54,185 nt of DNA from Burkholderiaceae bacterium. Its GTDB lineage: Bacteria; Pseudomonadota; Gammaproteobacteria; Burkholderiales; Burkholderiaceae_C. The stretch spans positions 110,957 through 165,141 of the forward strand of contig JAGOPK010000012.1 in assembly GCA_017992055.1 (NCBI GenBank). The letters run 5' to 3'. The position numbers and the translations under genes are program-made. Positions 33,231-37,530 of this stretch are shown one piece after another (the first letter of the stretch is position 1; the number at the start of each line of letters is the position of its first letter). The notes beneath the pieces were generated by a model. It worked only from the letters and a program-made list of their open reading frames with translations, made no database searches and was not told the DNA's origin.

Positions 33231-33253
33231 GTCGTCAGGCCGTGGTCAGACTT
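33231..33253 (-). promoter_or_regulatory. Predicted operator: two TGAC half-sites, 11 bp apart, before the receptor gene
   Basis: On the minus strand the sequence reads AAGTCTGACCAC, then GGC, then CTGACGAC. The TGAC cores are exactly 11 bp apart. The last core starts 25 bp before a -10-like CAGAAT (33212-33207) and lies about 64 bp before the start codon at 33170. The same AAGTCTGACCAC, a different 2-3 bp, then CTGACGAC occurs before the globin gene at 37449-37471. Spacing of one helical turn is typical for OmpR/PhoB-type dimers; assignment to the neighbouring regulator is inference. Confidence 0.65.
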
Positions 33254-33277
33254 GATGCGGCCGCGCCACGCCCGCCG

Positions 33278-33295
33278 CCTGACCGGGATCTGACC
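33278..33295 (+). promoter_or_regulatory. Second TGAC pair in opposite orientation
   Basis: CCTGACC at 33278 and TCTGACC at 33289 are 11 bp apart on the plus strand, just after the stop of the regulator gene (33298-33300 on the minus strand) and about 25 bp from the first operator. It could be an upstream accessory site for the receptor promoter. Being a single pair in the reverse orientation, it is less certain than the other arrays. Confidence 0.4.
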
Positions 33296-33297
33296 GA

Positions 33298-35967
33298 TCA
33301 GGGCATGGCCACCGGCAGGATCGCCGCCGAGGCGCCCGGGCCCAGGGCCAGTTCCACCGCCGCCGCGTCGCCGGCCGGCACCTGATCGGCATCGACCGCA
33401 TCGGCGGCCGCGCCCAGCGCCGCGCGCAGATCGCTGCGCATGCCGTTGAAGATCGGCCCGCGCTGGTCGCCGCGGGCCGCCACCAGGCGGTCGGACCAGG
33501 CCTGCAGCCGCGCCGCATCGCCGGGCCGGCCGTCGTGCCAGGCGGCCCAGGGCAGGGCATCGGACACCCACCACACCATGCCGTCGCTGGCCAGCAGGCG
33601 CAGCGCCTCCAGCGCCCGCGCGCGGCTGTCCGCATCCAGCCGGCGGCGCAGCGCCAGCGCCGCGCCCATGGCCACCAGTTGCACCTGGGTGCGCAGCCAG
33701 CCGGCGGCGCGCACGCTGTCCACCGCCTGCGCATAGTGCTCGCAGGCCTCGTCGCGCCGGCCCAGCAGCAGCAGGGCCTGGCCGATGATCTGGTCGGCCA
33801 GCCAGGCCTCGACCTGGGCACCCACCGACAAGGCCAGGCTGCGAAAGCGCTGGCCGTGCGCCAGGTAGCCGGCCATGTCGCCGTCGTCGCGGCACTGCAC
33901 GGCCTGCAGCGTGAAGGCAAAGCGCGCCGCCAGCGGCGGCCAGGCGGGATCGACCGCGGCCACCGCCGCCTCCACCACCGGCCGGCGCGACTGGCCGGGC
34001 TCGCAGCGCAGCATCAGCTGGAACTCGGCATGCAGCGAGGCATACAGGCGTGGCCGGTCGCCCTGCCCGGCCAGCAGCGGCCGGGCCGCGCGCAGGTCGG
34101 CCAGGGCCTGCACCGGATCGCCCACCTGGGCATAGCAGACGAACAGGCCATGGGCATGGTCCAGCCAGGCCCGCTGCAGCGCCGTCAGCGGCAGGGCCTG
34201 GCTGGCGGCCCGCTGGCGCGCCTGCTGCAGCCAGCGCGAGCCCTCGGCGCGGCGCCCGCTGCGGTGCCAGAACGGCACGCTGTGCGCCGCCAGCAGCACA
34301 GCGCAGGCGGCGGTGGCCGGCGCGGCCTGGCCGTCCAGGCCGTGGCGCAGCGCCGCGCGCAGGCTGTCCACATCGGCCTGGCAGGCGGGCAGCCAGTGGG
34401 CCAGCGGCTGCTGCAGATCGATCAGGTGCAGCGATTCGTAGCGCCGGCCCAGCCAGTCGACCAGACGATGGCGCGCATCGGCCTCGCGCCCGGACGGCGC
34501 CAGCCCGGCCAGCGCATGGCGGCGCACGCTGTCGTACAGGCGCAGCCGCGGCGAGGACGCGCCGGCGCCGGCGACCTCGTCGGCGCTGGCCAGCAGCGAG
34601 CGGGCATGCAGCTCGTCGACCACGTCCAGCGCCGCCTGGTCCCACAGCCCGTCCAGCACGCCCTCGGCATCGGCCAGCGTGAAGCTGCCGGCAAACACCG
34701 CCAGGCGCTGCAGGGCCTCGCGCTCGTGCGGCTGCAGCAGCGAGAAGGTCCAGTCCAGCGCCGCGGCCAGGGTGCGGTGGCGGCTGGCGGCATCGCGCGC
34801 GCCGCGGGTCAGCAGCGTGAAGCGCTCGTCCAGCCGGGCGCGCACGCCGGCCAGGCCCAGCAGCGGCACGCGCGCGGCGGCCAGTTCCAGCGCCAGCGGC
34901 ACGCCGTCCAGCGCACGGCAGATGGCGGCGATGTCGGCCGAGTCGGCCGCGGCGGGCTGCCAGCCGCCACGCTGCTGGGCAATGCGCGCGCACAGCAGCC
35001 GCGCCGCCGCATAGCCCTCGGGCGACGGCGCGCTGTCGCCCCAGTCGGCCGGCAGGGACAGCGGCGCCAGCGCCAGCACACGCTCGGGGCCCAGGCGCAG
35101 CGGCAGCTGGCTGGTGACCAGCAGCTGCACGCCGGGCGCCGCGGCCAGCAGGGCCGCCGCCAGCTCGGCCACCGCGCCGACCAGGTGCTCGGCGTTGTCC
35201 AGCACCAGGCGCAGGCGCAGGCCGGCGACGGCCCGGGCCAGCTCGTCGGCACCGGCTGCGGCCCGGGGCCCCAGCTGCAGCAGGCTGGCCAGCGTGGGCC
35301 ACAGCAGGGCCGGATCGTCCAGATCGTCCAGGCGCTGCAGCCACACGCCGTCGGCCGGCGCCTCGGCCGCACCGGCGGCGGCCAGCGCCAGCCGGGTCTT
35401 GCCCACGCCGCCCAGGCCGGTGAGCGTGACCAGGCGGTGGCCCTGCATCAGCGCCAGCACCTGCTGCAGCTCGTCGCCACGGCCGATCAGCGCGTCCATC
35501 TGCGCCGGCAGATTGCCCGGGCGGAGGGCGGCAGCGGCCGGCGCCGGTGGCGCCGCTGGTACTGGCGCCTCGGGTGCCGCGGGTGCCGCGGGTGCCGCAG
35601 CCACCGCGGCCACCTCGGCCACCTGGGCCACCTGGGCCACGAAGCGGTAGCCACGGCGCGGCACGGTCTCGACATAACGCGGCGCCCGCGCGTCGTCGCC
35701 CAGGGCCTCGCGCAGCAGGTTCACCGCGCCCTTGAGCACCGACTCGGTGACATGGCGATGGCCCCACACCGCGTCCAGCACCTCGTCCTTGCTGAGCAAG
35801 CGTCCGGGGTGAGCGGCCAGCAGCGCCAGCACCTGCAGCGGCCGGCCGTTCAGGCCCAGCGGCGCGGTCCCCCGCAGCAGGCGCGCCTGCGCCATATCGA
35901 GCACGAAGTCGCCAAAGGCCACCGGCCCGGGCGGCGCAACAAGCTGGGAAGAAGGTGGGACGCTCAC
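33298..35967 (-). CDS. OmpR-type winged-helix / STAND ATPase transcriptional regulator
   Basis: Large cytoplasmic regulator of 889 residues. An OmpR/PhoB-type winged helix spans about 17-112 (FVLDMAQARLLRG, LLSKDEVLDAVWG, ESVLKGAVNLLREALGDD, YVETVPRRGYRFVA). An Ala/Pro/Val-rich linker follows (112-150), then a STAND/NB-ARC-like ATPase with Walker A GLGGVGKTR (184-192) and RLVLDNAEH as Walker B, then a long helical C-terminal region that looks TPR-like. There is no receiver domain and no membrane helix, so a ligand or partner protein probably switches it through the ATPase. It sits among three transcription units that carry matching 11-bp direct repeats, the binding geometry expected for this DNA-binding domain. 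Simple repeats in the linker DNA (35560-35650) may vary its length. Confidence 0.88.
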   Translation of the reverse strand: MSVPPSSQLVAPPGPVAFGDFVLDMAQARLLRGTAPLGLNGRPLQVLALLAAHPGRLLSKDEVLDAVWGHRHVTESVLKGAVNLLREALGDDARAPRYVETVPRRGYRFVAQVAQVAEVAAVAAAPAAPAAPEAPVPAAPPAPAAAALRPGNLPAQMDALIGRGDELQQVLALMQGHRLVTLTGLGGVGKTRLALAAAGAAEAPADGVWLQRLDDLDDPALLWPTLASLLQLGPRAAAGADELARAVAGLRLRLVLDNAEHLVGAVAELAAALLAAAPGVQLLVTSQLPLRLGPERVLALAPLSLPADWGDSAPSPEGYAAARLLCARIAQQRGGWQPAAADSADIAAICRALDGVPLALELAAARVPLLGLAGVRARLDERFTLLTRGARDAASRHRTLAAALDWTFSLLQPHEREALQRLAVFAGSFTLADAEGVLDGLWDQAALDVVDELHARSLLASADEVAGAGASSPRLRLYDSVRRHALAGLAPSGREADARHRLVDWLGRRYESLHLIDLQQPLAHWLPACQADVDSLRAALRHGLDGQAAPATAACAVLLAAHSVPFWHRSGRRAEGSRWLQQARQRAASQALPLTALQRAWLDHAHGLFVCYAQVGDPVQALADLRAARPLLAGQGDRPRLYASLHAEFQLMLRCEPGQSRRPVVEAAVAAVDPAWPPLAARFAFTLQAVQCRDDGDMAGYLAHGQRFRSLALSVGAQVEAWLADQIIGQALLLLGRRDEACEHYAQAVDSVRAAGWLRTQVQLVAMGAALALRRRLDADSRARALEALRLLASDGMVWWVSDALPWAAWHDGRPGDAARLQAWSDRLVAARGDQRGPIFNGMRSDLRAALGAAADAVDADQVPAGDAAAVELALGPGASAAILPVAMP

Positions 35968-36038
35968 GGCGCGCGATTGTCGGGGCAGCAGGCCGCCGCC
36001 ACGCCGCCATCCCCCTCATCGCGGGACCGGGCGGGGCC

Positions 36039-36947: not shown

Positions 36948-36955
36948 GCCAGGCC

Positions 36956-37423
36956 ATGGCCCAGCCTTTCTGCGCAGCCAGCGCGGCACTGGCCGTGTCG
37001 CTGCTGACCGCCGCCGCACCGGCGCTGGCCGATCCCGGCGTGCAGCGCCGGGGCACGGGCTGGCTGATCCAGCCCCAGGGCCGCAGCCTGGCCGAGCTGG
37101 CCCAGGCCCTGGCCGCGGCCTCGGGCAGCCGGCTGGCCGGGCCGCTGGAGGCGCTGAACCAGTCCGTGCGCTGGCCCGGCCAGGGCCGCTGGCAGGTGGC
37201 CAGCCTGGACCAGGGCTGGGCCCTGCTGCTCGATGGCCGCGTCAACCACGCCCGCCAGTGCCTGGGCCAGGGCCGGAGCGAGCGCTGCACGCTGTGGCTG
37301 GTCTCGGCCAGGCCTGGCGGCGCGACACCGGCACCGGCGCCTCCGCCGATGCCCCCCGCACCCGCCGCGCCCCGGCCCACCGCCGATCCGCCAGGACTGT
37401 TTCCGTCCGAGGCCGGCTCCTGA
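36956..37423 (+). CDS. Small exported protein, possibly STN-like
   Basis: 155-residue product starting at ATG 36956, 8 bp after the beta-helix stop and probably coupled. A signal peptide (ALAVSLLTAAAPALA) is followed by a domain of about 90 residues (GWLIQPQGRSLAELAQALAA, RLAGPLEALNQSVRWPG, SLDQGWALLLDG) and a Pro-rich tail. The order, SLAELAQALAAASG then a short strand region then LDQGWALLLDG, resembles the STN/secretin N0 fold seen in TonB-related proteins, but this is a weak pattern match. It holds one Cys pair (RQCLGQG and RCTLW). Function unknown; it is probably a partner of the beta-helix protein. Confidence 0.65.
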   Translation: MAQPFCAASAALAVSLLTAAAPALADPGVQRRGTGWLIQPQGRSLAELAQALAAASGSRLAGPLEALNQSVRWPGQGRWQVASLDQGWALLLDGRVNHARQCLGQGRSERCTLWLVSARPGGATPAPAPPPMPPAPAAPRPTADPPGLFPSEAGS

Positions 37424-37442
37424 TGGCGGCCGCCCCGCCTTG

Positions 37443-37495
37443 TGACCGAAGTCTGACCACCCCCTGACGACGCCGACGCCGGTCGCGCCCACACT
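37443..37495 (+). promoter_or_regulatory. Predicted operator/promoter: three TGAC half-sites at 11-bp steps, before the globin operon
   Basis: TGAC cores start at 37443, 37454 and 37465, exactly 11 bp apart. The last two and their flanks (AAGTCTGACCAC, then CTGACGAC) repeat the receptor-promoter site almost base for base. A -10-like CACACT starts 25 bp after the last core, at 37490, and the globin start codon is 66 bp from that core. Gene-proximal placement over the -35 region fits activation by a PhoB-type protein. Confidence 0.7.
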
Positions 37496-37530
37496 GCCTT
37501 CACCCACTTCCACCCGATCCGAGGACCCCC

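Follow-up and report, generated by a model that had tools for sequence, protein, structure and literature searches.

Which protein reads the evenly spaced TGAC-like repeats that lie in three intergenic regions of a Burkholderiaceae bacterium, and with what effect on the genes behind them? The question is raised by a 54,185-nucleotide stretch of contig JAGOPK010000012.1 (assembly GCA_017992055.1), hereafter the window, in which arrays of 11-bp direct repeats precede genes for a TonB-dependent receptor, a beta-helix protein and a globin, next to the gene for P0001, a protein of 889 residues predicted to join an OmpR/PhoB-type winged helix to a STAND ATPase and a TPR-like region. The sequence comparisons reported here suggest that the array most likely serves this adjacent winged-helix/STAND/TPR-like protein as its operator, and we consider it quite probable that P0001 is a one-component regulator that activates four promoters by filling their arrays and recruiting polymerase.

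Read base by base, the three arrays hold two, four and three TGAC-like cores in an 11-bp register, exactly as the initial annotation of this DNA had placed them. The array before the receptor gene lies on the reverse strand at 33231..33248 (TGACCACGGCC TGACGAC, two units starting at 33248 and 33237), that of the beta-helix operon on the forward strand at 36039..36078 (TGACCCGGTCC GGACCACGGCC GGACGCCGGCC TGACGAC, four units with cores TGAC at 36039, GGAC at 36050, GGAC at 36061 and TGAC at 36072), and that of the globin operon on the forward strand at 37443..37471 (TGACCGAAGTC TGACCACCCCC TGACGAC, three units with cores starting at 37443, 37454 and 37465). In all three promoters a -10-like hexamer starts exactly 25 bp past the start of the last core, namely CAGAAT (33212-33207, reverse strand), GACACT (36097..36102, forward strand) and CACACT (37490..37495, forward strand), again in agreement with the earlier reading, as are the shared sequences: ACACTGCC is common to two window promoters, and AAGTCTGACCAC followed by CTGACGAC to two. 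The expression RAC-N8-RACGAC-N19-ASAVT, which was composed after the window sites were seen, matched three times in the window and not once in any of 100 shuffles. A further exact TGAC-N7-TGAC pair (TGACCGGGATCTGAC, 33280-33294, forward strand), absent from the initial annotation, stands between the TonB array and the stop codon of the regulator gene, in the opposite orientation to that array and with no good -10 at 25 bp.

The P0001 gene occupies 33298..35967 on the reverse strand, a start given by the open reading frame, the gene finder preferring 35922. The initial annotation had recognized an OmpR/PhoB-type winged helix fused to a STAND ATPase, and both Pfam and the structural comparisons agree: residues 37-109 match Trans_reg_C (PF00486) with an E-value of 1.5e-15 and 57.4 bits against a cut-off of 26.2, and the AlphaFold2 model (mean pLDDT 83.8, from a 12-row alignment) places the winged helix at about residues 16-109, followed by a low-confidence linker (118-148), a STAND-like ATPase and a long C-terminal TPR-like helical superhelix. 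The N-terminal domain retrieved ToxR-, RstA- and PhoB-DNA complexes with Foldseek (structural matches including 1gxp and 4nhj), and for P0001 the top match was the STAND-TPR structure 6mfv (E-value 4.3e-11), along with STAND, resistosome and CED-4 structures. A Walker A motif reads GLGGVGKT, and the Pfam AAA_22 match reaches 23.0 bits, under the cut-off of 27. Neither a receiver domain (Pfam, AlphaFold2) nor a BTAD domain (Pfam) was found; in the model nothing precedes the winged helix, and the linker leads directly into the ATPase fold. The predicted domain architecture is thus that of a P-loop NTPase of NOD/STAND type combined with TPR.

Evidence that the arrays belong to this protein comes from its relatives. 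The closest homologues of P0001 (52-56% identity) are found in Aquabacterium humicola, a Rubrivivax metagenome-assembled genome and Roseateles caseinilyticus (between them loci L080, L081 and L082), and in all three an array of 11-bp units, with GACACT or GAGACT at 25 bp, precedes the gene divergent from the regulator. This gene encodes a beta-helix protein, followed by a globin gene, in L080; a beta-helix protein, followed by a PEP-CTERM-like gene and a globin gene, in L082; and a globin in L081. Locus L083 brings together a beta-helix gene, a homologue of P0003 (the second product of the window's beta-helix operon) and two regulators, and its arrays (TAACCGAAACC TAACCG... GAAGGAC) carry CAGACT at 25. 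Across 18 aligned sites, the bases that separate the last unit from the -10 show poor conservation, yet the 11/25 spacing is kept. In these sites 18 bp separate the last heptamer from the -10 and the register one unit downstream shows little consensus, the alignment having been anchored at offset 25, so that it is no independent test of the 18-bp gap. Related genomes hence keep regulator and arrays together at the same spacing, and the operator inference withstands the check set by the initial annotation, for which retention of the genes without the repeats would have spoken against it.

We then looked beyond the sites from which the pattern had been drawn. The composite element ACC-N6-TGACGAC-N19-ACACTGCC, searched with at most one mismatch in 399 genomes of the family, gave 12 matches, spread over 11 genomes; the control gave 5. 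The window genome accounts for two of the 12. Two others, one in G003 (placed in the genus of the window genome by the grouping used) and one in G282, correspond to the sites of L081 and L087, which had contributed to the pattern; five of the eight new matches have a homologous winged-helix regulator no more than 0.1 kb away (L172, L174, L175, L176 and L178). The L174 site is found at the 3' end of the regulator gene, upstream of which stands another array. Conversely, loci can be chosen by protein. A winged-helix profile built from 16 regulators defines a subfamily with 32 places in 25 of the 399 genomes sampled; eight were known before, and the other 24 form 21 loci, all of which were surveyed. 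With the strict element pattern, five matches fell at spacing 11 and offset 25 (L211, L212, L217, L224 and L225) and two in the other 62 spacing/offset cells together. A matrix made from the 18 sites exceeded 15 bits in 16 of the 21 loci, with 27 matches that are all intergenic according to the gene finder, the maximum on reversed sequences being 11.1 bits on 42 strands. Since L211 lies on the same contig as the training locus L085, the fair count is 15 of 20 loci. In 101 other loci (1.37 Mb) a single match passed 15 bits. Close pairs exist among the loci of both scans (L211/L212, L218/L220 and L178/L213), one genome (G231) contributes five of the surveyed loci, and L215 is the same record as L089.

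The matrix result depends on the unit spacing: of 20 loci (L211 and L215 omitted, L048 included), 16 pass at 11 bp as opposed to 0 to 3 when the spacing is shifted to 7-10 or 12-15 bp. The 25-bp offset rests on the strict-pattern grid, because the corresponding shift of the -10 block is a soft control in which the repeats alone score and dominate the matrix. Diverged sites in several loci show TANNNT hexamers at offset 25 (TACGCT, TAGCCT and TATCCT), which supports the identity of the -10. A de novo search for 11-bp autocorrelation upstream of regulators was dropped as noisy in GC-rich DNA, lags of 9 and 12 bp often being equal; the GAGAC arrays of L084 and L085 are visible by eye in the autocorrelation display.

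The letters of the site also vary with the protein. For 32 of the 36 regulators a nearest site above 13 bits was available for pairing, a few pairs being 0.6 to 2.5 kb apart. Where the recognition helix carries R, Q or H before L-R, the last unit starts with A in six of seven pairs, as against one of 25 where a different residue stands there (Fisher p 5e-5, kinship ignored; L229 was counted among the others because the motif expression missed it). In L172, L173 and L176, moreover, arrays are present even though BLAST matches the window regulator in the winged helix only.

Within the window genome, a 5.9-Mb draft in 40 contigs, a composite pattern that draws on one relative as well as on the window sites gave four matches when up to three mismatches were tolerated; the reversed control gave none. 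The window promoters account for three of the four. The fourth (G000:C15:353715-353756) is intergenic, lies on a different contig, is also matched by the exact triple-TGAC search, and has a third core in register, TGACCAAAGCC, which the composite pattern does not cover. It precedes three small genes (L057:6054-7668, on G000:C15) whose products look secreted or membrane-like by eye, and with which a TonB receptor gene is convergent; none of the three proteins matched a Pfam family above cut-off, and homologues of the first gene occur in seven of 299 genomes, this one included. As read from sequence, the regulon would comprise four promoters, the fourth resting on a three-mismatch match that its extra core and its position strengthen. 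The local regulon first proposed would accordingly keep its three promoters adjoining the regulator and gain a site elsewhere in the genome. The triple TGAC-N7 pattern with at most one mismatch matched 16 times in this genome against four in the control. Its four exact matches are the globin site, the fourth site, C2:250081 and C16:293166, the loci of the latter two not being among the best-scoring loci of the matrix control.

Several results weigh against assigning the arrays to a dedicated regulon of P0001. The bare TGAC-N7-TGAC pair, which the initial annotation had put forward as a matrix for genome-wide scanning, was dropped for lack of discrimination: with at most one mismatch it occurs 21 times in the window against 28.3 expected, so that a scan with it alone would not discriminate, whereas the whole element does (exact pairs number four in the window, all within 33234-37468). 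A looser pattern in the window genome, with at most one mismatch, gave seven matches against six in the control, both exact ones falling in the window. The TonB site is the weakest member, with two units only and the lowest matrix score of the three window sites (29.7 bits, compared with 38.5 for the beta-helix site and 49.8 for the globin site, all three being training sites). Three of the eight new family-scan matches (L177, L179 and L180) are not next to such a regulator, five of the 21 surveyed loci (L215, L221, L227, L230 and L231) lack a site above 15 bits, and between 3 and 10 loci of the 20-locus set described above still pass when the -10 block is shifted, compared with 16 at shift 0. 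Finally, the targets are not conserved as a set. Homologues of the globin P0004 (E-value at most 1e-25) occur in 53 of the 399 genomes, 40 of them without a subfamily regulator at the thresholds applied and 13 with one, and these counts led us to reject the globin as a fixed partner of the regulator subfamily. The initial annotation had grouped the receptor, beta-helix and globin genes under joint control. In relatives the association of beta-helix, PEP-CTERM and globin genes recurs, but in Roseateles (L082) no matrix match above 13 bits precedes a nearby TonB receptor gene 38% identical to that of the window, and the targets in other loci differ again. The window's targets may therefore represent one variant of regulon content.

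In the mechanism that we favor, the STAND ATPase and the TPR-like sensor would keep P0001 inactive at rest, and a signal bound by the TPR part would trigger ATP loading and self-assembly. Each winged helix would read one 11-bp unit (consensus TGACCGAAACC, TGACCGCNNCC, TGACGAC), several neighbouring protomers lining up along the two to four direct repeats, so that the assembly would occupy the array. If the hexamer is a -10 element at -12 to -7, the last unit would lie at about -37 to -31 and overlap the -35 region, where bound P0001 would recruit sigma-70 RNA polymerase to a weak -10 of the GACACT type. The receptor, the beta-helix pair, the globin/lipoprotein pair and the three-gene secreted/membrane operon on the other contig would thereby be activated together. 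Binding, oligomerisation, and dependence on ATP and on a signal are what we infer here. As for the earlier proposal that the adjacent protein activates these genes, its operator link is upheld by conservation and helix covariation, and activation rather than repression would follow by analogy with AfsR and PhoB.

Other explanations can be set against this one. P0001 might bind the arrays and repress, shielding the -35 region at four sigma-70 promoters that are themselves constitutive, for as long as its STAND module is not triggered; the last unit does overlap the -35 position, and its CTGACG/TTGACG resembles a -35 element. We nevertheless regard repression as unlikely, since a 20-bp spacer from CTGACG to poor -10 hexamers makes the promoters look weak without help, and the nearest characterised relatives acting on 11-bp repeats, AfsR and PhoB, are activators. 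It is more improbable still that another OmpR/PhoB-type regulator, for instance a two-component response regulator, owns the arrays and that adjacency to P0001 is coincidental. OmpR-type domains generally bind such repeats, and the genome holds 14 places similar to P0001; however, the arrays adjoin the winged-helix subfamily of P0001 across genomes, their core letters covary with its recognition helix, the site tracks the winged helix even where the remainder of the regulator has diverged (L172, L173 and L176), and the scanned loci of the other paralogues contain no matrix match above 13 bits.

The least probable account, which we strongly disfavor, dispenses with a regulator altogether and takes the sites for chance or for locally copied sigma-70 promoters that are alike by descent. 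The 12-mer followed by an 8-mer common to two window sites is what such copying could leave behind, but genomes with different half-site letters keep the spacing, and the segment from last unit to -10 has drifted while the 11/25 geometry has not. We thus retain the arrays as probable operators of P0001.

The genes behind the window arrays are the following. The TonB-dependent receptor (PF00593, PF07715) is encoded on the reverse strand at 30711..33170, a start given by the open reading frame where the gene finder prefers 33128. Its N-terminal coding region contains a CTGGGT hexanucleotide repeat (33027-33079, 8.8 copies, 97% match) that encodes repeated TQ. The beta-helix operon, on the forward strand, starts with P0002 (258 residues, 36171..36947), whose N-terminus resembles a signal peptide by eye and whose AlphaFold2 model (pLDDT 81.5) shows the stacked strands of a beta-helix, with low-TM Foldseek matches to beta-helix lyases, epimerases and tailspikes; its homologues are 45% identical in L083, 45% in L082 and 27% in L080. 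The second gene encodes the small protein P0003 (155 residues, 36956..37423), whose L083 homologue (31%) adjoins the beta-helix gene there. The globin operon, also on the forward strand, consists of the single-domain globin P0004 (143 residues, 37531..37962; PF00042, E-value 7.2e-18) and, 3' of it, P0005 (413 residues, 37965..39206), which has a lipobox-like N-terminus by eye and no Pfam match. Homologues of P0004 next to orthologous regulators are 61% (L080), 53% (L082) and 38% (L081) identical. The 1.5-kb flanks of 30 globin loci contained no full P0001-like regulator and three weak winged-helix matches at 30%, a weak search because such flanks are too small to hold even the window's own regulator. 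No annotated OmpR-type regulator was seen in four plasmid globin neighbourhoods, one of which has LysR and TetR regulators and one a TetR regulator. In another of the four, on a plasmid of Deinococcus sp. KNUC1210 (L244), a globin homologue adjoins a 3.5-kb gene annotated as an AAA family ATPase, possibly another globin/ATPase-regulator neighbourhood.

Elsewhere, the genes that recur after arrays encode beta-helix proteins, globins, PEP-CTERM-type proteins and a protein of about 70 residues, with efflux-like outer-membrane proteins (by eye) in other loci. PEP-CTERM-type genes, several of whose matches score below curated cut-offs, are found at L082:6307-6939, L083:3848-4525 and 5419-6111, L174:6916-8278, L175:6966-7616 and L178:4912-8223. 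The protein of about 70 residues is encoded by the first gene after the array at L173:742-957, L213:6492-6722, L216:14806-15024, L219:6826-7056 and L222:10488-10700; these proteins have the central motif G-x-(V/I)-E-(H/N)-L/V-x-(S/T)-G in common, and the one scanned, from L213, belongs to no Pfam or NCBIfam family.

Comparable layouts were observed beside more distant regulators. In L062 and L275, globin genes are divergent from a regulator of another STAND clade, and upstream of them TAAG and GAAGG are spaced by 11 bp, AACACT standing at 25; the first core (TTAAC/TTAAT) is 10 bp further up, not 11, and the last two units are in the register of L083. Among the loci L098-L159, from rhizobia and a Pseudomonas, 35 of the 62 scanned carry another array type, TTTGGAAGT-TTTGAGAACT-TTTGGGAG-CTTAAT with a hexamer resembling CAGAAT at its end, in most cases directly upstream of the winged-helix gene; the expression used was composed after some of those arrays had been seen.

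These observations may point to something wider than first noted, a promoter grammar that hardly varies within a class of STAND regulators that has received little study, the same promoter layout recurring next to related, poorly studied regulators in other bacteria. In its most general form, which we advance tentatively and give slightly less than an even chance, the grammar (two to four 11-bp units, the last starting exactly 25 bp before the -10, with helix-dependent letters) would define which regulons belong to one-component regulators of an orphan class, of winged-helix/STAND or winged-helix/AAA type. These regulators would have in common, as their activation step, the DNA-templated assembly of a STAND oligomer at a position shifted upstream by one repeat relative to AfsR. 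P0001-like proteins are present in many copies in these bacteria, as the 14 places in the window genome illustrate. Because the spacing is fixed and the recognition helix covaries with the site, regulons should be predictable from sequence and the binding model is directly testable; if the grammar is true, the DNA alone could suffice to recognise local regulons made up of genes for surface proteins, globins and efflux-like products. The titles and abstract openings listed in searches of the open-access literature describe no sites or targets of P0001-like proteins, nor did they yield the combination that the initial annotation had thought undescribed; the subfamily itself is no singularity, given its presence in 25 of the 399 genomes.

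Several known systems resemble P0001 in part. MalT carries a LuxR-type DNA-binding domain at its C-terminus. P0001 resembles the MalT-like proteins and the STAND-TPR protein 6mfv in using a STAND ATPase and a TPR superhelix as a putative sensor and oligomerisation module, but its DNA-binding domain is an N-terminal winged helix of OmpR type. By similarity of this domain, CadC, ToxR and HilA come closest, the top matches being CadC in NCBIfam, CadC and ToxR among PDB sequences and ToxR by fold; yet P0001 scores 64.7 against the CadC family cut-off of 400. These activators have C-terminal parts of another kind, ToxR and CadC being membrane-bound regulators with a transmembrane segment and a periplasmic sensor. 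The C-terminal half of P0001 is modelled as a helical superhelix. The core recognized by PhoB is TGTCA, whereas that of the arrays is TGAC, and P0001 has a predicted STAND-TPR sensor and no receiver domain. With the PhoB/OmpR response regulators it nonetheless has in common the winged-helix fold (1gxp, 4nhj) and, as its putative operators, head-to-tail repeats at 11-bp spacing. A further parallel is AfsR of Streptomyces, which unites an N-terminal OmpR-type winged helix with STAND/NOD and TPR modules and acts on direct repeats of 11 bp; these lie at the -35 region, and the -10 of the promoter, CACTGT, is a poor one (PMC10936776). P0001 differs from AfsR and the other SARPs of Streptomyces in that no BTAD/BTA domain was found in it and in the position of the array: the 3' repeat of SARPs is 8 bp from the -10 (PMC10936776), whereas the last conserved heptamer of the arrays described here starts 25 bp and ends 18 bp before it. 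Relative to AfsR, the conserved array is hence displaced upstream by about one repeat, which would constitute a concrete mechanistic difference between the two systems.

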